This document shows positions 51,315 through 64,000 of a stretch of 64,000 bases of DNA, piece after piece. The DNA is from a bacterium. Lineage in GTDB: Bacteria; Elusimicrobiota; Elusimicrobia; Elusimicrobiales; UBA9959. The notes below the pieces were generated by a model, which was not told where the DNA came from, did not search any database, and was given only the letters and a program-made list of their open reading frames with translations. The stretch covers positions 1 through 64,000 of the forward strand of contig JAJZPF010000003.1 in the NCBI GenBank assembly GCA_021811315.1. The letters are read 5' to 3'. Each line of letters opens with the position of its first letter. Positions within the stretch are counted from its first letter, which is position 1. The translations under genes were made by a program, and so were the position numbers.

Positions 51315-52269
51315 AGCGCCACGCGGCAAGGTCGGCAAACTGGTGATCACCGGTGCGCTCGGGCATATAGGCTCGCGCTTTATCCACGGCATACGCCCCG
51401 GCGACTACAAAGAAGTGCTGCTGATAGACAATCTCCTGACCCAGCGGTATTGCTCTTTATTCAATTTGCCCGAAGGCGTGCCTTTCAAATTCATTGAAGC
51501 CGATATCTGTTCCTGCGACCTGAAGGCCCTGCTGAAAGGCGCGGACGCCGTGCTTCACCTTGCGGCTATCACCAACGCGGAAGGCAGCTTCGATAAACAA
51601 AAACAGGTGGAAGAAGTGAACTTCGAAGGCACGAAGCGGGTGGCCGAAGCCTGCGTGGCCAATGGCTGCGGGCTTATCTTTCTTTCGACCACCAGCGTAT
51701 ACGGAACCCAGAGCGACGTCGTGGACGAGGGCTGCGCAATAGACTCGCTGAAGCCGCAGAGCCCTTACGCCGATAGCAAGCTGAAGGCGGAGCGGCTGCT
51801 GGCGGAGCTCGGCAAAAGCGCGGGCCTCAAATTTATCACCTGCCGGTTCGGAACTATCTACGGGGCTTCGATAGGAATGAGGTTCCACACCGCCGTCAAT
51901 AAATTCGTCTGGCAGGCCTGCATGGGAATTCCAGTGACCGTCTGGCGGACGGCGATGGACCAGCAGCGGCCGTACCTGGACCTGGGCGACGCCGTGCGCG
52001 CCATAAACTTCATCCTTGCCGGCGGCAGGTTCGATAACGGGCTTTATAACGTGCTCACGGACAACGCTTCCGTGGCCGACATCCTGGCCGCTATAAAGAA
52101 GTATATCCCCGACCTCGGGGTAAAGCTCGTGGACTCTCCCATCATGAACCAGCTTTCCTACCGGGTGGCCTGTGAGAAGTTCCGCGCCCTGGGTTTTGAA
52201 TTCGAGGGCGACCTCGACGCGGCCGTTAAAAACACCATCGGCCTGCTGCGGCAGGCGCAGGGAAGATGA
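51307..52269 (+). CDS. NAD-dependent epimerase/dehydratase (SDR), second copy
   Basis: The 320-aa extended SDR shows TGALGHIGSRF (about 15-25), VLHLAAITNAEGSF, LSTTSVYGTQ and the catalytic SPYADSK (Tyr-x3-Lys). It is probably a sugar-nucleotide epimerase or dehydrogenase. Its ATG has GGAG 7 nt upstream inside the previous gene, and its stop overlaps the flippase start by 4 nt. Confidence 0.9.
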   Translation: MSEAPRGKVGKLVITGALGHIGSRFIHGIRPGDYKEVLLIDNLLTQRYCSLFNLPEGVPFKFIEADICSCDLKALLKGADAVLHLAAITNAEGSFDKQKQVEEVNFEGTKRVAEACVANGCGLIFLSTTSVYGTQSDVVDEGCAIDSLKPQSPYADSKLKAERLLAELGKSAGLKFITCRFGTIYGASIGMRFHTAVNKFVWQACMGIPVTVWRTAMDQQRPYLDLGDAVRAINFILAGGRFDNGLYNVLTDNASVADILAAIKKYIPDLGVKLVDSPIMNQLSYRVACEKFRALGFEFEGDLDAAVKNTIGLLRQAQGR

Positions 52270-53813
52270 ATTCCGAAAAGCCTGCCACGGGCGGCGCTCA
52301 CGGCAAAGGCCTGGCCGGGAATATCCTGTCCATAACCGTTTTCAGCGTAGCCTCCCCGTTCATCACTTTCTTTATACAGGTAGTTATCGCCGCCTATTTC
52401 GGCGCCACGGCGCTGATGGATGCCTTCCTGGCGGGCGTAACCCTTCCTTTATATGTGGTCGCGGTGCTCCTAGGCTCGGCAGTGCCGGTCTTTATCCCTA
52501 TCTTTGTCGGAAAGCTAGCACTGAATCAGGAGAAAGCCGCCTGGCAGCTGGGGGCTTCTGTCCTGGGTTTTACCCTGCTGGGCACTTCCGCGCTGGCCAT
52601 GGCGGGTATAGTTTTTGCCGAGCCCCTGTTGCGCATAACCACCCCCGGGATTTCCGGCGAGTCCATGCGCGCGGCCGTTCTGGTCGCCCGGATCACCTGG
52701 GTTTCCATCCCCGCCTCCGCGCTGACGGCTTTTCTGACCGGGATCTACCAGGCCCGCGGGCGCTTTATCTGGTCATCTGCCGTTCCGGTGATAGGCACTG
52801 TCGTAAACCTCGCTCTGCTGTTTTTTTTAATACCGATATTCGGTATTTCCGGGGTAGCGGCTTCGGCAACCATATCGCTGGTCCTCCAGTTGATGCTTCT
52901 TCTCCCGGTGCTTAAAGACCGAGGAGTCAGTTCTTACTTTAACCTTCGCGGTCCGGGACTGGGCGAAATCGGCCGCCTGGCCTTCCCGATGATATTGTTC
53001 GGCATCCTGACAAAATGCACGCCTATCGTGGAGCGCAACCTGGCGTCGGGGATGGGGCAGGGCAGCATTTCACACCTCGGTTACGCGTTCAGGCTGATGA
53101 CGATCTGTTCGTTCATTATCTCTACCGGAATCGCGACGGTCGCTTTTCCCAGAATGGCGCTGGAAAGCGCGCTGGCTGATGTCAAAAGTCTGTGGAAAAC
53201 GATCTCGGTCAGTTTCCGGATGCTGTTCCTGGTAGTAGCGCCTGCTATAACCTTGGGCGCCGCTCTGGCGCTCCCGCTGGTGTCCGCGCTGTTCGAGCGC
53301 GGTAAATTCACCGCGGCGGATTCCCTCGCCGTCTGCGGACTTCTGCGGATCTACCTGCTGGCTTTAGTGGCGGCCTCTCTGGGAAATATAAGCGGCCGGG
53401 CTTTTTTCGCTATTAAAGACACCCGCACCCTCGCGATCTTCGGCACGCTGGAAACAGTCGCATATGTGATCTATACCTCGGTCCTCGCTTCCCGCTTCGG
53501 GGTGAAGGGGATAGCGTGGGGCTATGTCATCTACTTCTGCATCTCTTTCTCCTGGCACTTCTTCCTGCTGAAGTACCGGTTCGGCAGAGAAGATTCCGGA
53601 ATCTACAGGTCTTTTGGCCTGACCATAGCCTGCGCCTGCGCCGCCGGCCTGGCGGCTTGGTTCGCTAAAGGTCTGCTGCCTGGAGCCTGGCTACAGCTAG
53701 GTGGCGGGATAGCTGCTGGTGCAATGGTTTATCTGGCGGGCCTCAAGCTTTTGGAGTCAGATGAATTAGACCTGTTCCTGAAACACACGCTGAGGCGTAG
53801 CCGGGAAATATAA
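52266..53813 (+). CDS. MurJ/MviN-like lipid flippase
   Basis: The 515-aa protein has about 14 transmembrane helices and MviN/MurJ-family features: AYFGATALMDAFLAGVTLP at the start, GIYQARGRFIWSS, and LASGMGQGSISHLGYAFRLM. MurJ flips lipid II, but relatives inside polysaccharide clusters act on other lipid-linked oligosaccharides; the position as last gene of this cluster supports export of its glycan. No Wzy polymerase or Wzz chain-length protein is seen. Confidence 0.85.
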   Translation: MNSEKPATGGAHGKGLAGNILSITVFSVASPFITFFIQVVIAAYFGATALMDAFLAGVTLPLYVVAVLLGSAVPVFIPIFVGKLALNQEKAAWQLGASVLGFTLLGTSALAMAGIVFAEPLLRITTPGISGESMRAAVLVARITWVSIPASALTAFLTGIYQARGRFIWSSAVPVIGTVVNLALLFFLIPIFGISGVAASATISLVLQLMLLLPVLKDRGVSSYFNLRGPGLGEIGRLAFPMILFGILTKCTPIVERNLASGMGQGSISHLGYAFRLMTICSFIISTGIATVAFPRMALESALADVKSLWKTISVSFRMLFLVVAPAITLGAALALPLVSALFERGKFTAADSLAVCGLLRIYLLALVAASLGNISGRAFFAIKDTRTLAIFGTLETVAYVIYTSVLASRFGVKGIAWGYVIYFCISFSWHFFLLKYRFGREDSGIYRSFGLTIACACAAGLAAWFAKGLLPGAWLQLGGGIAAGAMVYLAGLKLLESDELDLFLKHTLRRSREI

Positions 53814-53977
53814 AGAGATACCTGTGAGGAAAGGCCTTGCGCGGAATTTCAGATCGAAACAAAGATTCCGGATACTAAGGGCTTGATTAACAATAAAAGG
53901 GGCCCTCAAGGTTTATAAAACTCATTTGAAATATGTTTGTAGTCATTAACCCTGAATACCATGAAAAGGGTATTTAA
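53814..53977. other. AT-rich intergenic stretch after the polysaccharide cluster
   Basis: First half of the 353-nt gap 53814-54166. Base composition drops sharply compared with the preceding genes. I see no gene, no clear terminator for the flippase gene and no repeat here; the second half holds the candidate RNA listed next. Confidence 0.5.
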
Positions 53978-54006
53978 TTAGAGAAAATTCTGAGGTATGC
54001 TATCAT
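53978..54006 (+). promoter_or_regulatory. Candidate promoter upstream of a short structured RNA
   Basis: TTAGAG (53978-53983), 17 nt, TATCAT (54001-54006) matches four of six bases at each box, with optimal spacing. Start would be near 54013. Confidence 0.4.
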
Positions 54007-54012
54007 GGGAGA

Positions 54013-54088
54013 TAGGTTGCATTAGGTTTTATCAGGGCAAAAGAGGCTTAATGTGGAAGCGGGCACAGGATTGGTAACCCGCTTTTTT
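54013..54088 (+). ncRNA. Candidate small RNA or attenuated 5' leader
   Basis: A transcript of about 75 nt would fold into an 8-bp helix, GCATTAGG with CTTAATGT (54019-54026, 54047-54054, two G-U pairs, 20-nt loop containing GGGCAAAAG), and then a strong terminator. The ending in TTTTTT lies 79 nt before the ATG of the exported CsgG-like protein gene, so it is either a free small RNA or a premature-termination leader. I cannot match it to a known riboswitch. Confidence 0.4.
54057..54088 (+). terminator. Rho-independent terminator upstream of the CsgG-like gene
   Basis: AAGCGGG (54057-54063) pairs with CCCGCTT (54078-54084) across a 14-nt loop and runs into TTTTTT. No coding gene ends just before it, which is why an RNA or attenuator is proposed. 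Confidence 0.75.
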
Positions 54089-54166
54089 AATTTATTCCAC
54101 TGGAACAGCTAGCGCTTAAAGCTAAGCGAATTCTCAGCGGCAGATTGTCTCCATCTTCTAGACCAT

Positions 54167-55297
54167 ATGACAATAAGATATTGGATGTTAGCGTTCGCGC
54201 TCATAATTGTGCCAGGTATTTCTGCCAATTCATCAGCTAAAGATATTCCGGGGAATGGTACGGAGAAGGTGCAGGATTTGATCAGCTCAAAATCGCCTGT
54301 AGAAGCGCAAACCCCGGCAAATCCGGCCGAACCGGCGAATCCAGGGCAGAATCCTGTAAAACCGGCGGAGCCTGGCAATCTTGGTAAGAATGAAACACCG
54401 TCAAAGTCAGAAACACCAACTGAGCCCTCAAAACCCGCGGATTCACTGAATAAAGGAAATCCGACTGAAGAAACGCCTTCCGGTACCAAGCCGGCCGATC
54501 CCGGAGAAAATCCCGCCGAACCGGGCAATAAAGGAGAGCCTAACGGGGATAAAGAGCTTAAAGATAGCGCTAAGTCTGACGACTCCGGGAAAAACGCTAA
54601 AGATAAGAAAGACAAAAACGATAAAGATTCAAAGGGTAAAAAGGATAAGTCCGGAAAAGGCGGAGACTCCGGAGGCGGAAAGGGCGTCCCTGCCCCAAAG
54701 GGCGGCGCCTCAAGGCTGGGTCCGGCCGCGGGCGCAGCAGGCGGTGGGCTTATCGGCGGAATGCTGCCCGGGGGGAAAAAGGAAGCGAAGAAAGAAGAAA
54801 AACCGGGAAAGCCGGCTAAATCAGCTCTTAAAGAAGTCGCTGCTTCCAGTGAAACCGTAAGAAAGGCGGAGCCTGTCCAGGCCTCAACCCAGGCAACAGT
54901 CGCCGGGTCGCTTTACTCTGCCGGGAAGGGAGAAAGGATAGCTGTGATAGATTTCGAAGGAGAGTCGGGGGCCGAATTTGCCGCGCTCCTGTCTTCGGCT
55001 TTAAGCTCGGATTTGAAAGTTTATGATCCTAAAAAGCTGGCGGCTAAAAAGTATACTGCCGCAGCAATAAATGGAATTTCAGTCAGAAAAATAGCTTCGG
55101 AGATCGGTGTTGAATATTTAGTAACCGGCAAGGTAAGTAAAAAAACCTCCACGCTTTCCATAATCTCCATATTCCTGCGCGACGGCCAAACCGGCGATAC
55201 AAAAATGACCGATAATCAAAATATAAGGTCCTCCGGAGATCTTGAAACTGCCGTGAGAAACGCCGCAGGAAAGATAAAAGAAAATATAAATCCATAA
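54167..55297 (+). CDS. Exported low-complexity protein with C-terminal CsgG/FlgO-like domain
   Basis: The 376-aa protein has a signal peptide (about 1-25), then about 190 residues of low complexity: PAEP/PANPGQNP-type proline, glutamate and asparagine repeats, then lysine/aspartate-rich KDKKDKNDKD and glycine-rich GGG blocks. The C-terminal 130 residues (IAVIDFEGESGAEFAALLSSAL, then ISVRKIASEIGVEYLVTGKVS) resemble the CsgG/FlgO/LpoB-like fold of outer-membrane-associated proteins. The linker could span the periplasm or cell wall. Start could be ATG 54167 or 54185; neither has a strong ribosome site. Leads the five-gene exported-protein cluster. Confidence 0.7.
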   Translation: MTIRYWMLAFALIIVPGISANSSAKDIPGNGTEKVQDLISSKSPVEAQTPANPAEPANPGQNPVKPAEPGNLGKNETPSKSETPTEPSKPADSLNKGNPTEETPSGTKPADPGENPAEPGNKGEPNGDKELKDSAKSDDSGKNAKDKKDKNDKDSKGKKDKSGKGGDSGGGKGVPAPKGGASRLGPAAGAAGGGLIGGMLPGGKKEAKKEEKPGKPAKSALKEVAASSETVRKAEPVQASTQATVAGSLYSAGKGERIAVIDFEGESGAEFAALLSSALSSDLKVYDPKKLAAKKYTAAAINGISVRKIASEIGVEYLVTGKVSKKTSTLSIISIFLRDGQTGDTKMTDNQNIRSSGDLETAVRNAAGKIKENINP

Positions 55298-55336
55298 GCG
55301 CGTATTAAAGTTGTGTTCAGCTGGATAAGGATAAAA

Positions 55337-58300
55337 ATGAAAGCCAATTTAATAAAGAACGGAATCTGCTTTAAAAAATGCGCTTTAATGTCTGTTCTTT
55401 GCTTCTTGCCTCAACAAAGAGCCGAAACAACAGCGAACCAAGTTTTGCCTGCGCAGGTACGACTTGCACCCGCTCCGTATTTAGTTAAGTATATCCAGGA
55501 AAAATTCGATGCCCCGCAAGTTGCGGAGGCATTTAGGTATTCCGAGGGGGTGAAGCTGGAGAGAACTGTCGATGGAATAAAGCTTAAAACAGGTAATCTC
55601 GGTTTGTCCGAGTCACAGGCCGCGCTCAAACCGGAAGAAGCAAAAGCCCTTGAAGCTATTGCGTTCAGGGACAATTCTAAGGAGAACGGCCTTCCGGTAT
55701 TTACGCTTGGGAATACCATAGGCTCAGGCAACGTCATCAGCTATAAAGGCAATGTTTTAAGAGTAAGGCATATTGCGAAAGGCGGGAAGCTTTCCAGGGC
55801 CGCTGTTGACGGCGGCGTGGTGGAGTATTCTGAGGCTTATCCTGACACAAATATCCTCTACGTGCTGTCCACCGGCCGCTGCCAGGAAATGCTTCTCTTG
55901 AAATCTGAAAAAGCGCCGAAACAGTTTGAATATGAGTACTCCAAAGAAATAGCCCTCAATAAGATGGGGGAGATAGTTGTGGACGGACTTAGTCTGTCTC
56001 GCCCGGTTATCTTTGATGCGGCGGGCAAGCGGGTTGACGGATACTACCGAAAAACTGGGAAAAAGAGGGTTTTGCTCTCGTTCAATAGAGCGGGGCTGCA
56101 ATACCCGCTATTAATCGATCCGACCTGGCAGGCTTCGACTGGCTCAATGGGCGCAACAAGGTATCTTCATACCGCAACATTATTACCCAATGGCAAAGTG
56201 TTGATAGTCGGTGGTACGAATGGCTCAAGTTCCCTTTTATCGGCTGAGTTGTATGACCCGGTAACCGGCACATTTTCCGCCACCGGTTCAATGAGCACAG
56301 GAAGGAAGTTCCACACCGCGACACTGCTGCCCAATGGGAAGGTGTTGGTGGCTGGCGGGAGCGGCGTCTCAGACCTAACCTCGGCGGAATTATACGATCC
56401 CGCCGTGGGAACATTTTCCGCCACCGGTTCGATGAGCGGCGCCCGGTCCGGGCATATCGCTATATTACTGCCGAATGGAAAAATATTAGTAGCCGGCGGA
56501 TATAGCGGAAGCATATATAATTCCTCGGCTGAATTGTATGATCCTGCCGCAGGGACATTCGCGGTCACCGGTTCAATGAGCGTGGGGCGTGGGCAGTATT
56601 CCGCTACATTGCTGCCGAACGGGAAGGTGTTAGTGGTCGGTGGAGACAGCACAGGCGCAGCCATAGTCGCCTCAGCTGACTTGTACGACCCCGCCGTCGG
56701 GACATTTTCCGCCACCGGTTCAATGAGCGCGGCGAGATTCAGGCATTCCGCTACATTGTTGCCGAGCGGCAAGGTATTAATCGTCGGAGGCGCCAACAGC
56801 TCAACCCTTTCCTCGGCCGAGTTGTACGACCCCGCCGCCGGAACATTTTCAGCCACAGGTTCAATGAGCGGGATAAGGCAGGGCCCCATGGCAATGCTGT
56901 TGCCGAATGGGAAAGTGCTTGTGACCGGGGGCGCTGACGCTAGTACCGCCCTTTCTTCGGCGGAGTTATACGATCCCGCAGCCGGGACATTTTCTGCCAC
57001 CGGTTCAATGAGTGAATTCAGGTCTTCCCCTACTGCGACATTGTTGCCGAACGGAAAAGTCTTGATTGCCGGTGGACATAATGGCAGCGCAGCTGTCTCA
57101 TCCGCTGATTTGTACATTCTTTCCGGAGGAAGCGGAACGTTTTCCACTACAGGCCCTATGAGCGCGGCTAGGCAGCAGCATAAGGCAATATTGCTGCCAA
57201 ATGATAAGGTTTTGGTTGCGGGAGGATACAACGGGGCATTTCTTTCCTCAGCCGAGTTGTACGATTCGGTTTCTGGTCTATTCTCTGGTACGGGGTCTAT
57301 GAATGAGGCAAGGTGGGATCAGACCTTGACTTTGTTGCCTAACGGCAAAGTCCTGGTCGCTGCCGGAAATAATAATGGTTCAACCTGCACCGCCGATCTA
57401 TATGACCCGGCCATAGGGATATTTTCTCCCACAGGCTCGATGATAGTCTGCGGTATAAGAAACAGGCATACTGCGACATTGCTAAAGAATGGGAAGGTGT
57501 TGATCGCTGGGGGATATGATAATTCAGCGTCTCTTTCCACCGCTGAGCTCTATGACTACTCTGCCGGAACATTTTCAGTCACGGGTCCATTAGGTGCAGC
57601 AAGGCGGTATCATACAGCGACCCTACTGCCAAATGGTAAAGTTTTGGTCGCGGGCGGGAGTTCTGATGGGAGCTCAGGTCTTTCCTCAGCTGAACTGTAC
57701 GATCCTTCCACGGGAATATTTTCTGCTACCGGATCAATGGGCGGCGTAAGGTTGCACCATACTGCGACTTTATTGCCAAATGGCAAAGTTCTGATAGCTG
57801 GCGGCGGCCTTTCCTCAGCTGAGTTGTACGACACCTCTACGGGAATATTTTCAGCCACGGGATCAATGAATGAGCCAAGAAGCCTTCACTCCGCCACTCT
57901 CCTCCCCAACGGAGCGGTTCTTATTGCGGGAGGGACCGGAACTTCCACTTCAGAGTTATATGACCCCTCGTCGGGAGTGTTTTCGCCTGCGGGATCAATG
58001 GCTGTTGCGAGAGGGTATCATGCGGCAGTGCTTTTGTCGAACGGCAAGGTGTTGCTGGTTGGTGGAAGCGGTAGCGGATATCTTTCTTCGGCTGAGCTAT
58101 ATGACACCTTGTTTGGGCAAGTGTTAACGGGCAAAGTGACAAAATCTGACGGGGTTACGGGAATTTATGGGGCAACGGTTGAAGTGCTGCAAGGCGGCAG
58201 TCTTCTTGCGCAGACAACCGCCTCTTCATCAGGTAATTATTCAATAACTCTCGCAGCCGGAGTCTACGATGTTCGGGCAAGCACAGCTGGATACCAATCT

Positions 58301-58675
58301 TTGTTAAAAGCTGGAATTTTAGTCGCCGCCGGACAGGCAACAATAGCAAATTTCACTTTGCTCGAATCCTCGGAGCAAAAACCACAGGTGGAGTATAAAA
58401 CAACGCTTGGTGATAATTTGTTCAATCCAAGGACTGGCGGGACTTCTAAAATAAAGTTAAGCGTTCCCTCTTCTGGCAGAGTGTCGCTTAAGATATACAA
58501 CCTGGCAGGGAAGCCTATACGCACGCTTTTTGAAGGCGAACTCGCCGCTGGTGAGGCTCAGAAAGACTGGGACGGGAAAGATGACAGCGGGCGGTACGTG
58601 GTCCCAAGCGTTTACTTCCTATACTATGTGTATCCAGGCGGCAAAGAAGTCAGGAAGATAGGGGTTAAAAGATGA
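55337..58675 (+). CDS. Large exported kelch-repeat protein with FlgD/T9SS-like C-terminus
   Basis: The 1112-aa protein has an N-terminal export signal (about 1-37), a leading domain (about 40-260) with YSEAYPDTNILYVL-type sequence, then 14 tandem kelch-like repeats of about 47 aa (DNA 56143-58125), each built on GSM-x-x-x-R-x-x-HTATLLPNGKVLIAGG followed by SSAELYDPxxGTFSxT. Next come a carboxypeptidase-regulatory-like beta domain (GKVTKSDGVTGIYGATVEV...) and a C-terminal FlgD/T9SS-like segment (NPRTGGTSKIKLSVPSSG, WDGKDDSGRYVVPSVYFLYY, ending KIGVKR). The two propellers implied by 14 repeats suggest a surface binding or scaffold protein. ATG 55337 has AGG upstream. It overlaps the next gene by 4 nt. 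Confidence 0.85.
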   Translation: MKANLIKNGICFKKCALMSVLCFLPQQRAETTANQVLPAQVRLAPAPYLVKYIQEKFDAPQVAEAFRYSEGVKLERTVDGIKLKTGNLGLSESQAALKPEEAKALEAIAFRDNSKENGLPVFTLGNTIGSGNVISYKGNVLRVRHIAKGGKLSRAAVDGGVVEYSEAYPDTNILYVLSTGRCQEMLLLKSEKAPKQFEYEYSKEIALNKMGEIVVDGLSLSRPVIFDAAGKRVDGYYRKTGKKRVLLSFNRAGLQYPLLIDPTWQASTGSMGATRYLHTATLLPNGKVLIVGGTNGSSSLLSAELYDPVTGTFSATGSMSTGRKFHTATLLPNGKVLVAGGSGVSDLTSAELYDPAVGTFSATGSMSGARSGHIAILLPNGKILVAGGYSGSIYNSSAELYDPAAGTFAVTGSMSVGRGQYSATLLPNGKVLVVGGDSTGAAIVASADLYDPAVGTFSATGSMSAARFRHSATLLPSGKVLIVGGANSSTLSSAELYDPAAGTFSATGSMSGIRQGPMAMLLPNGKVLVTGGADASTALSSAELYDPAAGTFSATGSMSEFRSSPTATLLPNGKVLIAGGHNGSAAVSSADLYILSGGSGTFSTTGPMSAARQQHKAILLPNDKVLVAGGYNGAFLSSAELYDSVSGLFSGTGSMNEARWDQTLTLLPNGKVLVAAGNNNGSTCTADLYDPAIGIFSPTGSMIVCGIRNRHTATLLKNGKVLIAGGYDNSASLSTAELYDYSAGTFSVTGPLGAARRYHTATLLPNGKVLVAGGSSDGSSGLSSAELYDPSTGIFSATGSMGGVRLHHTATLLPNGKVLIAGGGLSSAELYDTSTGIFSATGSMNEPRSLHSATLLPNGAVLIAGGTGTSTSELYDPSSGVFSPAGSMAVARGYHAAVLLSNGKVLLVGGSGSGYLSSAELYDTLFGQVLTGKVTKSDGVTGIYGATVEVLQGGSLLAQTTASSSGNYSITLAAGVYDVRASTAGYQSLLKAGILVAAGQATIANFTLLESSEQKPQVEYKTTLGDNLFNPRTGGTSKIKLSVPSSGRVSLKIYNLAGKPIRTLFEGELAAGEAQKDWDGKDDSGRYVVPSVYFLYYVYPGGKEVRKIGVKR
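56143..58125 (+). repeat. 14 tandem kelch-coding repeats (about 141 bp each)
   Basis: Each unit encodes a GSM...LLPNGKVL..GG...SSAELYDP...TGTFS module. The units are diverged at DNA level but share blocks such as TTGCCGAATGG-like cores, so slippage or recombination could change copy number. Confidence 0.85.
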
Positions 58676-60024
58676 AAAAAACTCTTTTCTCCTTCTTTTT
58701 CCTGTTCTCTTCCATGGTCGCTTCCGCGCAGGAGAGCGGAGTTTTCCTGACTCTGCCGCTGTCTCCGCGGGCCGGCGGCATGGGCGACGCTTTCGTCGCT
58801 CTGGCTGACGATCCTCTCGGGCTGTACTACAATCCGGCCGGGATGGTTTTCGCGAAACGGCCGGCTATCTCCCTGGTTTACCACAAATACCTGCAGGATA
58901 TAAACGGAAATTCTTTTGCTTTCGTATACCCGTTCAGGCATTGGGCGATAGGTTTTGCGCCGACCATCTATGCAATGAAAGAAGAGCCGATCTATGACTC
59001 GCTGGGGGCCGATACAGGGGGAAAGTTCGGCTATGAATCCAAGCTAATGGACGTCGCCCTGGCGGGGAGAATAGGCGGCCTGGGGCTGGGCGTCGCGGGC
59101 AAATCATACAGCGAGGATATCGGCGGGCAAAAATCCGCCACTACCGCTTATGACGTCGGTGCTATTTATAAATTGGGCAGGTTAAGTTTTGGGGCGGCAA
59201 TCCAGAATCTTGGCGGAAAGATATTTGAGTATAAGGTGGCTAAAATCCAGCGGCTTGGCGCCGCTTATACCGGAACTAAGTATTCCGCCGCGGTAGATCT
59301 GAAGAAAGAAGGGGAGGATAAAGGTTACCTGGGTTTTGGCGGAGCCTATAATCTTTCCAGGGCGCTGAAATTGCGCGGCGGCTGGCAGCTTAAAGATGAA
59401 TTCGGCGGTATTACTTTCGGGCTGGGCTTTGAACTCGGCGGACTTAGTTTTGATTATGCATTTCTAAGTTATGGCGATCTTGGCGCAACTCATAAAGCGG
59501 GAGTTTCTCTGGCTTTCGGGGCCAGTGCGGATAGGACAAAAGTAACTGAAGTTGAAAAAGACGATATAGAAGTTAAAGGCGGCTTTCAAGCTTCGACAAA
59601 TACCGCGCCTGGTATTGTGAAAATAGCCGGCGGGACGAATATCGCCGTGGCGGAATTCGTCGGCAAAAATGTTTCGCAGGCCGACGCCTCTATCGTTACC
59701 GATTTCTTGCGCACAGAGCTGGTGAGCAGCGGTCTGTTCAATGTAATGGACAGGAATAACATGGATACCGTTCTGGCAGAACAGAAATTCCAGAACAGCG
59801 GTTGCACCGAGCAGGAATGCGCGGTGGAGATGGGGAAGCTGCTGAATATTAAGCAGGTTCTTGTCGGCTCCCTTTCAAAACTTCTGGACAGCTACTATGT
59901 TACGGTGAACGTGGTGGACGTCGAAACAGGAAAGATATCCGTGTCATACAATAGCGACGCGGTTTCTTCGAAAGAACTTAAAGAAGTATGCAGAAAAATA
60001 GTAAAAAATCTCTCCCGGAAATAA
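58672..60024 (+). CDS. PorV/PorQ-like outer-membrane protein fused to a CsgG-like domain
   Basis: The 450-aa protein has a signal peptide (1-19). Residues about 20-300 match PorV/PorQ (UPF0164)-type beta-barrels: PLSPRAGGMGDAFVALADDPLGLYYNPAGM, followed by alternating barrel strands. Residues about 325-450 form a CsgG-like domain: NIAVAEFVGKNVSQADASIV, MDRNNMDTVLAEQKFQNSGC, EQECAVEMGKLL, VGSLSKLLDSYYVTVNVVD. PorV is the type IX secretion shuttle that carries substrates with conserved C-terminal signals; such a signal-like end is encoded by the overlapping upstream gene. A fusion of this kind is unusual. The stop overlaps the next gene's 5' end by 37 nt. Confidence 0.8.
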   Translation: MKKTLFSFFFLFSSMVASAQESGVFLTLPLSPRAGGMGDAFVALADDPLGLYYNPAGMVFAKRPAISLVYHKYLQDINGNSFAFVYPFRHWAIGFAPTIYAMKEEPIYDSLGADTGGKFGYESKLMDVALAGRIGGLGLGVAGKSYSEDIGGQKSATTAYDVGAIYKLGRLSFGAAIQNLGGKIFEYKVAKIQRLGAAYTGTKYSAAVDLKKEGEDKGYLGFGGAYNLSRALKLRGGWQLKDEFGGITFGLGFELGGLSFDYAFLSYGDLGATHKAGVSLAFGASADRTKVTEVEKDDIEVKGGFQASTNTAPGIVKIAGGTNIAVAEFVGKNVSQADASIVTDFLRTELVSSGLFNVMDRNNMDTVLAEQKFQNSGCTEQECAVEMGKLLNIKQVLVGSLSKLLDSYYVTVNVVDVETGKISVSYNSDAVSSKELKEVCRKIVKNLSRK

Positions 60025-61322
60025 TTGTTGCCGGGCTGCTTCTACTGCCTGTTTGCGTTTTCGCCGGGTTATCGCCCGGGGACAGGGCTCCGGATTTCGA
60101 ATTGACTGACATGACGGGGAGAAGCGTTTCCCTCGCCGATATCACCAAAGATAATAAACCGGTAGTTCTTTCTTTTTTCGGCACCTGGTGCGAAAGTTGC
60201 CTTAAGGAGATGGGCGACTTGGCTGTAATGGTTAAGCAGTATGACGCCGCTGTCTACATGGTGGGCGTAGACGGGGACAAAGACCTTCTATCCAAGTTCG
60301 TTGCAAAGCATAATATCCCTTTCCCGGTGCTTTGGGACCCCAAGGCCAAAATAATGAGCAGGAAGTACGACTTGATGCGCGGGGCCTACCTTGTCGTCCC
60401 TAAAACCTATATTATCTCACCTGACGGAAATATAGAGTATGCCGCCGAATCCTACGATGAGGCGAGGAAAGCTGCCCTGACCGCGAAGCTCGCGGCTTTA
60501 AGCGGTAAAAAATGGGAAAAGCCTTCGGAGGTCGCTGTCTACTTTACAGGTTCTGCCAACGGCTACCTTGAATCCTGTAACTGTTTCAAGCATCCGTACG
60601 GCGGCTTTATAAAACTGCTTTCTTTCCTTAAGCAGCAGGCCGGCAAATATTCCAGCCGTATCCTGCTTGATTCCGGAGATTTTCTTCCTTATGGCGTAAC
60701 CCCGGCTCAGGCCGGCCCTGTTTTTAAGGCGATGGCCCTGGCTGATTATGATGCGGTGGCTGTGGGTGATCAGGATCTGGCTTATAAAGGATTTATTGCG
60801 GAGGTTAAAAGGAATAAGGAAACCTTCCTGGCTTCAAATATAAGTTTTAAGGACGGGAGCCCGGGGGCGGCTGATAAAACATTAATGGCCGGCGGCATTA
60901 AAGTGCGTATCGTGTCTTTTGCTGATCCGGAGACTTTTTCTCTCTATCCCGAAGAATTTACCTCCAGGCTGGCTTTTAAAAATATAAAGGAAGTGTTGAA
61001 AGGCGGTAAGAACGCCGACTACCTGATACTTCTTTCCCATGCCGGGGTGGATGAGAATAGGAGAATTGCGGCGGAGTTCGGGCAGATAGACCTGATAATC
61101 GCGGGGCACTCTCAGGGACTTCTTAACAAACCGGTAAAAGCAGGCAACGCCATTATCGTCCAGTCTGGCGGCAATATCCAGAACCTTGGAAGGCTCGTGC
61201 TGCGCTTTGACAGCAAAGGTAAATTGCTGGGTTATTCACATGACATTTTTCCTTTGACGAACGATATCCCTGATTTTCCGCAGATAGCGGCAATTCTTAA
61301 GGATGCAAAAAATATAAAATAG
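59988..61322 (+). CDS. Exported thioredoxin-like / metallophosphatase-like fusion
   Basis: The 444-aa protein has a signal peptide (about 1-26), then a TlpA/AhpC-like thioredoxin domain (about 28-165) with the redox pair C68/C71 in GTWCESCLKE. The rest (about 178-440) resembles the 5'-nucleotidase/UshA metallophosphatase fold: RILLDSGDFLPYG, AVAVGDQDLAYK, LILLSHAGVDENRR and DLIIAGHSQG. The usual D-x-H start motif is replaced by a cysteine-rich LESCNCFKHPYGG, and GHxH by GHSQ, so metal binding is altered. It may transfer electrons or sense redox state rather than hydrolyse nucleotides. Overlaps the barrel gene by 37 nt. Confidence 0.75.
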   Translation: MQKNSKKSLPEIIVAGLLLLPVCVFAGLSPGDRAPDFELTDMTGRSVSLADITKDNKPVVLSFFGTWCESCLKEMGDLAVMVKQYDAAVYMVGVDGDKDLLSKFVAKHNIPFPVLWDPKAKIMSRKYDLMRGAYLVVPKTYIISPDGNIEYAAESYDEARKAALTAKLAALSGKKWEKPSEVAVYFTGSANGYLESCNCFKHPYGGFIKLLSFLKQQAGKYSSRILLDSGDFLPYGVTPAQAGPVFKAMALADYDAVAVGDQDLAYKGFIAEVKRNKETFLASNISFKDGSPGAADKTLMAGGIKVRIVSFADPETFSLYPEEFTSRLAFKNIKEVLKGGKNADYLILLSHAGVDENRRIAAEFGQIDLIIAGHSQGLLNKPVKAGNAIIVQSGGNIQNLGRLVLRFDSKGKLLGYSHDIFPLTNDIPDFPQIAAILKDAKNIK

Positions 61323-61389
61323 TAGCGGCGCTTTCAGCGGCGGATCGTCATGAGAGGCCTGGGCGTGAAAACAATTTATTGAAGGTTAC

Positions 61390-63039
61390 ATGAACTGCAC
61401 CATGAAAAGAACAAGGATATTCCTTAAAACCTGCGGGTTGTTCGCGCTCCTTTGCCTGTTCCAGCAGCGGTGGGCGGAAACGGCTTTTTCTGAGCAACCG
61501 CAGGCCTGGTGGGTCACAGCCGGCTCGATGAACGCGGCTAGATATACCCATACCGCGACATTATTGCCTGGCGGCAATGTGCTGATTACCGGCGGGTATG
61601 ATGCCAATACCACTTCTCTTTCTTCGGCCGAGCTGTACGACCATAGAACCAAAAAATTTGTTCCCACGGGCTCAATGTGTGAGGCGAGATCATTCCATAC
61701 AGCTACTTTGCTGCCTAACGGCAAGGTCCTGATCGTCGGTGGAAACAGGGGCAGGGCTGCGCTTTCCTCCGCCGAAATATACGATCCCGCCGCCGGAACC
61801 TTTTTGCCTACCGGCTCGATGATCACCCCAAGAAATAATCACATCGCAATTTTGCTGAAGAATGGCAAGGTTCTTGTCGCCGGCGGATACGAGGGGCGCG
61901 TATATGTTTCCTCGGCCGAGCTGTATGATCCCGCCACCGGGAGATTTTCCGCCACCGGCTCTATGGGCGCTGCGAGGAATCAGTTTACCGCTACTTTGCT
62001 GCCCAAAGGAAAAGTTCTGGTGACGGGGGGGCAGGGCAACAAGCGGCAGGCCCAGGGTATCATTTCCTCGGCGGAATTGTATGACCCCGCCTCCGGAACA
62101 TTTTCACCCGTCGGGTCGCTGACCATCGCGAGGTTCAGGCATAGCGCTACCCTGCTGCCGGGCGGCAAGATACTGTTGGTCGGAGGATTCGACGGCATGG
62201 AGACGCTTTCTTCTGCTGAATTGTACGACCCGGCCCGCGGCACATTTACCCCCACCGGTTCGATGAGCGGGATAAGACAAGCCCATGTGGCGATATTACT
62301 TCCGAACGGAAAAGTGTTGGTGACCGGCGGCGCCGACAGTAGTGCGCCCCTCTCCCTGGCGGAGCTATACGACCCCGCCTCTGGGATGTTTTCCCCGAAT
62401 GGTTCAATGAGCACTGCGAGAAGTTCTCACTCCGCGACTTTGCTGCCGGGGGGCAAAGTCCTGGCGACCGGAGGACATGGTGGCGTTTCGGCCGTCTCTT
62501 CGGCCGAGTTGTATGCTTTTTCCACCAGGATCGCCGATTCTCCCGCTGCGGTTTCAGCGAGTGCGGCGAAGCAGGAACATAGCGAGGCTTTGTCGCCGGC
62601 TATACCCCAGGAGCCTGCCCGCGTAAGAGTTGTGAAAATGCCGGACGCTAATAATGTGGCGGTGGCGGATTTTATCGGCAAGAACGTTTCGCAGGCGGAC
62701 GCTTCTATAGTGGCGGGATTTTTAAGGACCGAACTGGTGAACACCAGGCAGTACAAAGTGATGGACCGCAGTAATATGGACACCGTACTGGCCGAGCAGA
62801 AATTCCAGAACAGCGGCTGCACCGAGCAGGAATGCGCGGTTGAAATGGGGAAGCTGCTTAATGTCAGGCGGATGTACGTGGGCTCGCTCTCAAAGCTTCT
62901 GGACAGCTATTATATAACGGTCAACGAGGTGGATGTGGCGACCGGTGAAATAACGGCGTCCTATGACAGCGACGCCGTATCCGCAAAGAAATTGAAAGAT
63001 GCCTGTAAAAAGATAGTGGTAAAGATATCCGGGAAGTGA
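61390..63039 (+). CDS. Exported kelch-repeat protein with C-terminal CsgG-like domain
   Basis: The 549-aa protein has an export signal (about 1-32), seven kelch repeats of about 47 aa (DNA 61521-62520) of the same type as the larger protein, a short linker and a C-terminal CsgG-like domain (about 418-549) that is very close to that of the barrel fusion: NVAVADFIGKNVSQADASIV, then KFQNSGCTEQECAVEMGKLL. Ribosome site GAAGG lies 5-7 nt before ATG 61390. It likely works with the barrel fusion and the larger kelch protein at the cell surface. Confidence 0.82.
   Translation: MNCTMKRTRIFLKTCGLFALLCLFQQRWAETAFSEQPQAWWVTAGSMNAARYTHTATLLPGGNVLITGGYDANTTSLSSAELYDHRTKKFVPTGSMCEARSFHTATLLPNGKVLIVGGNRGRAALSSAEIYDPAAGTFLPTGSMITPRNNHIAILLKNGKVLVAGGYEGRVYVSSAELYDPATGRFSATGSMGAARNQFTATLLPKGKVLVTGGQGNKRQAQGIISSAELYDPASGTFSPVGSLTIARFRHSATLLPGGKILLVGGFDGMETLSSAELYDPARGTFTPTGSMSGIRQAHVAILLPNGKVLVTGGADSSAPLSLAELYDPASGMFSPNGSMSTARSSHSATLLPGGKVLATGGHGGVSAVSSAELYAFSTRIADSPAAVSASAAKQEHSEALSPAIPQEPARVRVVKMPDANNVAVADFIGKNVSQADASIVAGFLRTELVNTRQYKVMDRSNMDTVLAEQKFQNSGCTEQECAVEMGKLLNVRRMYVGSLSKLLDSYYITVNEVDVATGEITASYDSDAVSAKKLKDACKKIVVKISGK
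61521..62520 (+). repeat. Seven tandem kelch-coding repeats
   Basis: Seven units with the GSM...LLPxGKVL..GG...SSAELYDP pattern, one propeller's worth. The units are homologous to the 14-unit array at 56143-58125. Confidence 0.8.
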
Positions 63040-63090
63040 CGGTTTCTAACTGGCCGCGAAAATGAGCCCGCGATCGCTTAGCAGAGTTCG

Positions 63091-63981
63091 CTATCTAAAA
63101 TTGTATTTGGCCGAGAGGCCGAGGGCGGGCCCGCCGCGGAGGCGGGTTTTCGCTTTGTAGTCGTCGTAGCGCGCGCCGGTGTAGTACAGGCCGCTGAACT
63201 GCCAGCCGAGGGCGGGGGTCAGCTCGAAGGCGCGGGATAGAGACAGGGAGGGCTTAAGCGAAATATAGGAGGCCTCGTAATAGAGCGCCCGGCTTTTATC
63301 TTTCCGCCCGGCGGGGAGGAACTGCTCAAGAGCCGTGCCGCCCTCGAGCTCCGCGCGGAAGAAGGGCAGGGGGCGCCAGTTGAGGCCGGCTTTGAAATAT
63401 TTCACGGGCTGGTAGGAGGCCGAGAGCGCGATCGTTTTAGAGGCCTGCCAGCGGACCATGAAAGGCAGGACGACCAGAAGCGTTTTAGAGGTGTAGCGGT
63501 AGGTCAGGAAAGGGAGCGGCAGGCCGCGCAGGAAAGGGCGCCTGCTTGAATAGTTGAGGCCCCAGAGCCAGGCGCTGCCGTTTTTCTCCGACAGAAGGGC
63601 CATGAAGGTCAGGCCCAGGTCGGTTTCTGAGGGGGAGTTGAAGGGGCGGTCTGAATTCGAATTCAGGTTCAGCGCCAGGCGGGTGTCGCCTTTTTCCGCC
63701 GTCAGCTTAAGGCCGGCTTTGTAAAGCTCGCCGGGGAAATAGCCGGGGCCGAGGTTCCGCAAATGCTCCAGGTCCGCCGCGGCGCGCAAGCCGAAGCCGG
63801 CGGTCTTTCCCAGCGCCGTTTCCCCGGAAATCCCGGTCCGCCTGGAGATGAGTCCTTCGGGGGCGGAGTAAGAGAGGGAGGCCCCGAGCGAAGCGGCAGG
63901 CTTCGGGGGGCCTGTCTGAGCCGCGGCCGCCGCCGGGAATAACAGGCACAGGGCGCTGATGAATTTCATCGCGGCCCTCAT
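63091..63981 (-). CDS. Outer-membrane beta-barrel-like protein
   Basis: The 296-aa product has a signal peptide (cut near AAAAAQ) and alternating hydrophobic/polar strands typical of a beta-barrel, ending in ALGLSAKYNFR with an aromatic near the C-terminus as in outer-membrane barrels. It resembles DUF6268-type barrels of unknown role. ATG 63981 and ATG 63969 both have plausible ribosome sites (GGGGA and GAGG). It converges on the kelch-CsgG gene with a 51-nt gap. The last 19 nt of the window show nothing. Confidence 0.7.
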   Translation of the reverse strand: MRAAMKFISALCLLFPAAAAAQTGPPKPAASLGASLSYSAPEGLISRRTGISGETALGKTAGFGLRAAADLEHLRNLGPGYFPGELYKAGLKLTAEKGDTRLALNLNSNSDRPFNSPSETDLGLTFMALLSEKNGSAWLWGLNYSSRRPFLRGLPLPFLTYRYTSKTLLVVLPFMVRWQASKTIALSASYQPVKYFKAGLNWRPLPFFRAELEGGTALEQFLPAGRKDKSRALYYEASYISLKPSLSLSRAFELTPALGWQFSGLYYTGARYDDYKAKTRLRGGPALGLSAKYNFR

Positions 63982-64000
63982 CCGGTTTTCCCCAGCTCTA

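Follow-up and report, generated by a model that had tools for sequence, protein, structure and literature searches.

A kelch protein and its adjoining PorV-family barrel in an Elusimicrobiota genome: a putative cargo–carrier pair of a type IX-like export route

The closest described counterpart of the locus analyzed here is the type IX secretion system (T9SS), which excerpts of recent papers describe as exclusive to Bacteroidota (PMC12618676) or to the Fibrobacterota–Chlorobiota–Bacteroidota (FCB) group or superphylum (PMC11285876, PMC11205867), and which is described as powered by a proton motor. The present study concerns a 64,000-nucleotide stretch of DNA (hereafter the window) on contig 8 of the Elusimicrobiota assembly GCA_021811315.1 (2.67 Mb, 63% complete), and in particular two overlapping genes of a five-gene module, 55313 and 58672 (genes are named after their first nucleotide), which encode a large kelch protein and a PorV-family barrel. 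In the literature searched, which did not cover subscription papers and preprints, we found no description of T9SS or of its PorV and SprA parts in Elusimicrobiota.

In Flavobacterium johnsoniae, as described in passages of PMC10994853, the C-terminal domain (CTD) of the cargo is bound in the SprA pore by loops of PorV, and the energy-requiring step was deduced to be the release of the carrier–cargo complex. Passages of PMC12618676 and PMC9143113 state that in Bacteroidota PorV serves type A cargo, which PorU attaches to lipopolysaccharide (LPS), and that type B cargo is often accompanied by a neighboring PorP/SprF carrier thought to act as an anchor, PorE bridging it to the cell wall. PorE combines CpoB (tetratricopeptide repeat, TPR), TolB, carboxypeptidase and Pal parts (PMC12204202, excerpt), which largely coincide with the domains fused to the Elusimicrobiota PorVs described below.

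The Elusimicrobiota genes resemble the T9SS of Bacteroidota in comprising an SprA/Sov homolog, PorV-family carriers and type-A-like CTD cargo with a lysine near its end. They differ in occurring outside the FCB group, in the presence of many PorV paralogs versus one PorV for type A cargo, in the failure of profiles for GldL, GldM, GldN and the catalytic part of PorU to match, and in the length of SprA, which is about 1800 aa compared with 2403 aa in structure 6h3i. With the type B pairs (F. johnsoniae SprB-SprF; P. gingivalis PG1035-PorP-PorE; passages of PMC12618676 and PMC9143113) they share a carrier gene directly downstream of the cargo gene, a FadL-family barrel and a carrier proposed to serve as surface anchor. 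In contrast to these pairs, the carriers found here belong to the PorV family, the CTDs are type-A/FlgD-like, and OmpA, TPR, carboxypeptidase-like or LpoB-like domains are fused to some of the barrels, whereas P. gingivalis PorE is a separate protein. The combination of a type B CTD with a PorP/SprF carrier was not found, the carriers matching the PorV family: CHU_C reached 20.6 bits in one cargo (cut-off 27) and PorP_SprF 19.4 bits in one carrier (cut-off 22.3), and TIGR04131 was absent from general NCBIfam scans, no search having been aimed at it. A third point of comparison is the LpoB/PelC/CsgG superfamily, recognizable by fold and partial sequence match in 58672 and in a second kelch protein of the module, although here the domain is fused behind a barrel.

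We consider it probable that 55313 and 58672 are one of many cargo–carrier pairs of a T9SS-type outer-membrane export route, in which, for most cargo, a private PorV acts as both carrier and membrane anchor. On the sequence side, this rests on the pairing itself, co-divergence of the partners, exchange of passengers, co-loss of the translocon homolog, and the failed motor and sortase profiles; from these we infer export, one-to-one recognition and anchoring.

Cargo protein and PorV-family barrel

An initial annotation, made from the nucleotide sequence, had proposed a FlgD/T9SS-like C-terminus for the kelch protein. Scanned as a whole, the protein matches TIGR04183 (T9SS type A sorting domain) at 23.8 bits against a cut-off of 23, so that the proposal holds, albeit marginally; in the genome scan the same CTD scored 20.4 bits, under the cut-off, and FlgD_ig fits equally (30.7 bits, cut-off 27). 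The CTD was modeled together with the preceding domain; the best of five models had a predicted local distance difference test score (pLDDT) of 88 and a predicted template modeling score of 0.50, and three of the five had a pLDDT below 70. Foldseek matches of this region include FlgD (3osv, E 1.1e-4), the RgpB CTD (5ag8, E 9e-4) and PorU (6za2, E 1e-3), all ranked behind many other proteins, among them carboxypeptidases that match the preceding domain. Across the 58 CTD–PorV pairs assembled below, a lysine near the C-terminus occurs in 56 CTDs and an arginine in the other two, and in most pairs the CTD extends to the final residue. By position, not by superposition, this lysine is equivalent to the one of F. 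johnsoniae, reported to be almost invariant in type A CTDs and to contact PorV (PMC10994853, passage).

The annotated PorV-like barrel in the gene overlapping the kelch gene by 4 nt was borne out, since 58672 scores 102.5 bits with NF033709 (PorV/PorQ family; curated cut-off 90) and the stop of the cargo gene and the start of the barrel gene overlap as ATGA. All four PorV proteins scanned exceeded the NF033709 cut-off, and none reached that of the PorV equivalog NF033710 (250). The barrel protein is 93% identical to its counterpart in the Elusimicrobiales metagenome-assembled genome STB_10, the closest named relative. AlphaFold2 (15 aligned sequences) predicted an N-terminal helical part, about 14 barrel strands (counted by hand in the DSSP output) and an alpha/beta domain at the C-terminus, with a mean pLDDT of 74 and block means of about 51–74 in the C-terminal domain. 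The two highest-ranking Foldseek matches are PorV of the F. johnsoniae translocon (8gl6_F, E 3.7e-12, template modeling score 0.51 by query length; 6h3i_F), followed by FadL and TodX.

The initial annotation had also placed a CsgG-like domain behind the barrel. A domain of this superfamily is indeed present, but its fold is LpoB/PelC-like and not that of a curli channel: it matches LpoB (4q6z, E 2.5e-5) and PelC in Foldseek, none of the 50 fold matches listed carries a CsgG description, and PF03783, although over its cut-off (42.6 bits), covers only about 70 of 210 CsgG positions (32–100). A complete, channel-forming CsgG domain was thus not found in 58672, and an LpoB-like domain fused behind a barrel does not imply a curli-type channel; curli-type secretion was therefore rejected. 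The cysteine pair C378/C383 of the domain is invariant in all eight aligned sequences. C-terminal extensions of more than 60 aa are carried by 16 of the 58 PorV open reading frames (ORFs) scoring above 100 bits, comprising six OmpA, four TPR, two LpoB/CsgG-like and one carboxypeptidase-like extension and three without a match.

Pairing and co-divergence of CTD and PorV genes

The window's own genome yielded 14 TIGR04183 matches and, with a PorV-only query, 12 distinct PorV-like genes, and the 18 surrounding stretches were read. Profiles built from the first finds were then applied to these stretches and to the window, giving 17 PorV ORFs and, in the genome, 19 CTD matches. A CTD gene lies directly upstream of 15 of the 17 PorV ORFs: 14 were recognized by a script that required the CTD ORF to end at most 250 bp upstream of PorV on the same strand, and that of locus L033 by inspection, the chosen start overlapping the cargo beyond what the rule allows. 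Together with the PorV gene of L031, which stands directly ahead of an ORF bearing a CTD (C26:48658-48936), 16 CTD–PorV pairs are seen in this genome. Because the regions were picked by both PorV and CTD matches, the unbiased figure is that of the 12 genes from the PorV-only query, ten of which have a CTD gene directly upstream, one of which is directly ahead of one, and one of which has neither. Conversely, 13 of the 14 TIGR04183 matches adjoin a PorV gene; 12 of the 14 exceed the cut-off, seven alone and five only with in-frame neighbors.

Ten other genomes (G012, G020, G028, G037, G053, G061, G077, G110, G134 and G144) contributed 40 PorV regions chosen from high-scoring matches. The script found a CTD ORF directly upstream of 33 of the 40 targeted PorV genes, that is, of 33 of all 43 PorV ORFs in these regions; in two of the 43 the CTD ORF is directly downstream, and L089, which failed the script through start choice, is a further upstream pair by inspection. 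The arrangement recurs far above the chance rate, which we assumed to be about 1–2% from the 19 CTD matches in the own genome; binomial p-values computed from such assumed rates are given no weight here. Gene order proved to be conserved in relatives. Within the own genome, L028 repeats the order of the window (CTD cargo with NHL/fn3, PorV-LpoB, TlpA/UshA), and in L012, L013 and L014 the CTD gene is 249 to 819 bp from PorV. The CTD-then-PorV order also occurs in Calditrichota locus L021 and in HGW-Elusimicrobia-2 loci L022 and L023, so that it may extend beyond Elusimicrobiota.

One genome carries four PorV copies that are 87–96% identical (L038 6704-7705, L039 9341-10315, L040 6753-7727, L041 7148-8122), each behind a large CTD gene with a frame of 2846 to 5528 codons, which points to a recent expansion. 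CTD-type matches were also seen in open frames of 13,000–17,600 codons (G028:C11, G037:C6, G086:C54, G030:C6), possibly encoding giant surface proteins.

PorV and CTD distances were compared by the mirror-tree approach in 58 pairs, of which the own genome supplied 15, the ten other genomes 34 and named relatives nine, including one Calditrichota and one Bacteroidales pair. The correlation was r 0.88 for all pairs, 0.95 for the 15 own-genome pairs, 0.71 for the 12 left after dropping three close copies, and 0.57 for the 19 left after thinning PorV to below 40% identity, in each case reached by none of 5000 permutations. Nearest neighbors are concordant in 32 of the 58 pairs.

Passengers, by comparison, were exchanged. 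The CTDs of L012, L013, L014 and L019 are 77–85% identical to that of the window, the rest of the cargo showing no match at E 1e-3 (the cargo ORFs of L013 and L014 run off their contigs; that of L019 has a mere 222 aa, and only part of the L019 barrel can be read in one frame). L013, L014, L019 and L011 have passenger parts in common, L012 shares none with them, and the passenger of L011 matches that of the window (62%). L017 has only the domain before the CTD in common with the window, its CTD being 62% identical, and in L028, in the same genome as the window and with a more distant PorV-LpoB, the CTD is 31% identical. From this pattern of identities among PorV-LpoB loci, the CTD follows the PorV type and not the passenger.

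The pairing could instead stem from joint duplication of a two-gene unit, with any PorV serving any CTD and the carriers being redundant rather than private. Linked inheritance would produce the correlation, and the four near-identical PorV copies behind large CTD genes fit such duplication; moreover, the unit may be old, given that at L025, a Bacteroidales locus, a 1272-aa CTD ORF precedes PorV, which agrees with the porU-porV gene order. However, passengers were exchanged while CTD and PorV-LpoB stayed together at high identity, which needs recombination that respects the CTD–PorV unit, and the small genomes of family f2 contain few PorV genes as well as few CTDs. We give joint duplication with interchangeable carriers a modest chance of being the full explanation, and continue to favor private cargo–carrier pairs.

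Translocon homolog, motor searches and the proposed route

Of the T9SS core genes, which the initial annotation had suggested looking for, a Sov/SprA homolog is present in the own genome, whereas GldL, GldM and GldN gave no match over cut-off. TIGR04189 matches, in collinear pieces, one 1833-aa frame on contig 21 (116.5 bits, E 6e-34), this being its sole NCBIfam match at E 0.01; no Pfam match was obtained at E 0.01. A profile of 19 such proteins, all ending in phenylalanine, retrieved SprA from the PDB (6h3i, 6h3j) at E 5e-31, with no other entry below E 0.5. Judged by these profile matches, homology to Sov/SprA is clear, and we know of no role of SprA other than in T9SS. Of 149 Elusimicrobiota genomes, 129 contain the homolog (113 of the 122 rated high-quality); no control genome out of 14 matched at E 0.001, and one, Thermus composti, did so at E 1. 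As positive control, Bacteroidales gave 2650 bits, and Calditrichota and Zixibacteria also exceeded the cut-off.

In the same 149 genomes PorV is present in 140 and CTD in 126; as a rule no more than 15 PorV candidates were scored per genome, so that high copy numbers are lower bounds. All nine PorV-free genomes are also SprA-negative. SprA and CTD occur together in 122 genomes, SprA only in seven, CTD only in four and neither in 16 (three of them inferred), with a Fisher p of 8e-13 that overstates independence, since the missing cases fall in one family and mostly in small genomes. When the 20 negatives were searched with a more sensitive SprA profile, G048 gave a piece at a contig end, G017 decayed remnants interrupted by stop codons and G139 a weak remnant, whereas 17 genomes gave no match. 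SprA gene fragments with in-frame stops in small genomes (G017, G101, G139) are consistent with decay of the route. Taken across these genome searches, loss of the SprA homolog tends to go along with loss of PorV and CTD.

In the own genome, the SprA-like gene (L026 7586-13027) lies between two LPS transport genes, LptF/LptG (L026 5347-7555; Pfam scores of 217 and 208 bits), and a gene that encodes a zinc ribbon together with a phosphoribosyltransferase domain (L026 13077-13844) and that we take to be ComF-like. At SprA loci elsewhere (L056-L073), LptF/LptG homologs were seen in 16 of 18 and a phosphoribosyltransferase-domain homolog in 15 of 18.

Genome searches for components covered Sov/SprA, GldL, GldM, GldN and PorU. 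In 22 Elusimicrobiota genomes and the genome of L011 (apparently G110 again), GldM had no match at E 0.1, GldN none over cut-off (one weak match, in G108, at E 0.045), and GldL none over cut-off, with weak matches in five of the 22 and in the L011 genome (best E 2e-4, 21.2 bits, cut-off 68.3); a Bacteroidales control was clearly positive. The weak GldL matches were not credited as a motor, because five control genomes also match below cut-off at E 0.1. Among the matches listed for the 22 genomes, PorU was represented only by its CTD part (positions 863 or later of 1095), unlike in Bacteroidales, Zixibacteria and Calditrichota, where the catalytic part was found.

These searches bear on a second alternative, namely a canonical T9SS with a divergent, undetected motor, ring and sortase, in which the additional PorV genes are extra copies and cargo undergoes the same processing and release as in Bacteroidota. 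SprA, the PorV family and CTDs are all present, as such a system demands; the GldL, GldM and GldN models, which fail also in Calditrichota and Zixibacteria with strong SprA, seem to have limited reach; GldL did give weak matches in Elusimicrobiota; and PorK/GldK, PorW/SprE, PorT, PorD, PorZ, PorQ and Plug lay outside the genome-wide searches. Yet, among the matches listed, the catalytic part of PorU is missing in Elusimicrobiota but present in Bacteroidales, Zixibacteria and Calditrichota, and a shared PorV would leave both the PorV behind nearly every cargo and the co-divergence unexplained. We think this alternative unlikely, and did not assign the route to canonical T9SS, given the results for motor, GldN and sortase. 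That the PorVs are FadL-like uptake channels or structural barrels, with the CTD proteins as periplasmic partners whose FlgD-like domain serves Ig-type docking without export, is improbable. In favor of this reading, FadL and TodX rank next in the fold search, the CTD fits FlgD_ig and TIGR04183 equally well, TIGR04183 has matches in some controls and several PorVs carry extra domains. It would not account, however, for an SprA homolog that is present in most genomes and tends to disappear along with PorV and CTD, nor for the near-invariant lysine of a CTD that usually ends the protein.

Several observations weigh against a route of private cargo–carrier pairs. TIGR04183 also matches in three of the 14 control genomes, once over cut-off, and is therefore alone no proof of T9SS; the window's CTD is a marginal match to it, fits FlgD_ig equally well, and finds FlgD ahead of the RgpB CTD in Foldseek. 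The SprA-like score of 116.5 bits is under the equivalog cut-off of 200, seven SprA-positive genomes have no CTD match, and G117 and G143, both fragmented assemblies, keep PorV and CTD with no SprA found. As to pairing, the upstream rule is not satisfied by seven of the 40 targeted PorV genes (in L089 because of the start chosen), L036 has a PorV gene without a CTD neighbor and L035 a CTD gene without a PorV neighbor, and all four TPR-extended PorV genes (L031, L036, L093 and L095) lack an upstream CTD gene; such TPR-type PorVs may be shared carriers for orphan cargo, a lead to follow. The own-genome regions were partly picked by CTD matches, and those of other genomes scored highly with a profile that had been derived mainly from paired PorVs. 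At the strictest thinning (35%, 12 pairs) r fell to 0.45 and was reached by 11 of 5000 permutations, and joint inheritance of linked genes, which alone can yield mirror trees, explains part of the correlation. Finally, the negative GldL, GldM and GldN results in Calditrichota and Zixibacteria genomes with SprA over cut-off imply that these models may not reach distant motors.

The idea that the kelch protein and its own PorV form a compact secretion unit survives in part: the pair is well supported, but a self-contained unit was rejected, since the translocon homolog is on another contig and the pair is one of 16 in the genome, all of which presumably share that one translocon. In the mechanism that we propose, cargo and PorV would be made together, as their 4-nt overlap suggests, and exported by Sec, and PorV would fold into the outer membrane. 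The cargo would enter the SprA/Sov-like translocon encoded elsewhere in the genome, where its cognate PorV would dock and bind the CTD. The complex would then leave sideways, and the cargo would stay on the surface held by its own PorV, because the searches revealed no PorU sortase able to cleave the CTD and hand the cargo over to LPS. The C-terminal domains fused to PorV (LpoB-like here; OmpA, TPR or carboxypeptidase-like in sister proteins) may tie the complex to the periplasm or cell wall. By analogy with the described systems, Elusimicrobiota seem to apply the adjacent-carrier logic of type B cargo to the type A carrier PorV, which in the window is translationally coupled to its cargo and is probably retained as anchor.

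A bolder version, which we put forward tentatively and hold at clearly less than even, is a route with neither motor nor sortase, in which a single-use PorV pulls its cargo from the SprA-like translocon and stays as its anchor, in some cases tied to the cell wall by a fused OmpA, TPR or LpoB-like domain. We conjecture that carriers subject to neither recycling nor hand-over would render a rotary motor and PorU unnecessary; if so, the route may be an ancestral form of T9SS or an early simplification of it.

The occurrence of SprA, PorV and CTD throughout a phylum outside the FCB group, where most type-A-like cargo has an adjacent carrier and no motor was found, bears on the origin of T9SS, on the purpose of its motor and on carrier specificity. 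Natural CTD–PorV pairs, 16 in this genome alone, offer a data set for a recognition code, and the proposed route provides a hypothesis for the surface display of very large proteins in a poorly cultivated phylum.

Gene inventory and neighboring genes

The five-gene arrangement noted from the sequence is confirmed (Table 1): all five ORFs are present at or very near the coordinates first annotated, with signal-peptide-like N-terminal stretches as judged by eye. The likely start of the cargo gene is the in-frame ATG at 55337, as first annotated. Kelch repeats were found in two proteins, as claimed (PF13418, 239.7 and 158.2 bits). CsgG-like domains had been assigned to three; they are clear in 58672 and 61390 (PF03783, 35.6 bits in the latter) but weak in 54167, where DUF3280 scored 21.2 bits, under its cut-off. 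The statement that all five proteins share parts fails for 59988, which has none in common with the others.

Table 1. Coordinates of the features of the module in the window, followed by PorV genes with a TPR extension at other loci.
Feature	Coordinates	Strand	Basis or remark
Cargo: signal-peptide-like start, kelch repeats, carboxypeptidase-regulatory-like domain, C-terminal sorting-type domain; 1120 aa	55313..58675	+	TIGR04183, FlgD_ig
CTD, last 90 aa of cargo: type A/FlgD-like beta-sandwich	58403..58672	+	Profile and fold matches
PorV-family barrel fused to CsgG/LpoB-superfamily domain; 450 aa	58672..60024	+	NF033709, PF03783, fold
LpoB/PelC/CsgG-superfamily domain, residues 322-450, presumed periplasmic	59635..60021	+	PF03783, LpoB 4q6z E 2.5e-5
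TlpA/AhpC-TSA thioredoxin domain (WCxxC) fused to UshA/SoxB-like metallophosphatase	59988..61322	+	Profile scans
Kelch domain fused to LpoB/CsgG-superfamily domain; no barrel, no CTD	61390..63039	+	Profile scans
Exported-looking protein, weak DUF3280/TolB_N-like (CsgG superfamily) C-terminal domain	54167..55297	+	Weak profile match
PorV gene with TPR extension, L031	6210-8108		No upstream CTD gene
PorV gene with TPR extension, L036	7348-9081		No upstream CTD gene
PorV gene with TPR extension, L093	3607-5391		No upstream CTD gene
PorV gene with TPR extension, L095	4138-5898		No upstream CTD gene

Gene 59988 scores 90.7 bits with NF041198, under its cut-off of 275. In the regions scanned, a TlpA/UshA gene occurs only adjoining two PorV-LpoB genes of the own genome, and WCxxC is kept in all nine copies inspected; as a correlative lead from these sequences, the protein is possibly a dedicated redox partner of the cysteine pair in the LpoB-like domain.

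Gene 61390 resembles the N-terminal part of 55313 plus the C-terminal part of 58672, and judged by this resemblance it looks like a paralog, as if a duplicate of the cargo–PorV pair had lost everything between kelch and the C-terminal domain of the barrel. Pfam and NCBIfam scans found no CTD in it; for this reason it was rejected as a second cargo and is probably not exported by this route. The fusion is conserved in L011 (12712-14358), as is gene 54167, which has related ORFs in L012 and L018. The guanine–cytosine content is 0.52–0.55 across the module compared with 0.59–0.65 in the rest of the window, the drop from about 0.60 falling within 52000-64000.

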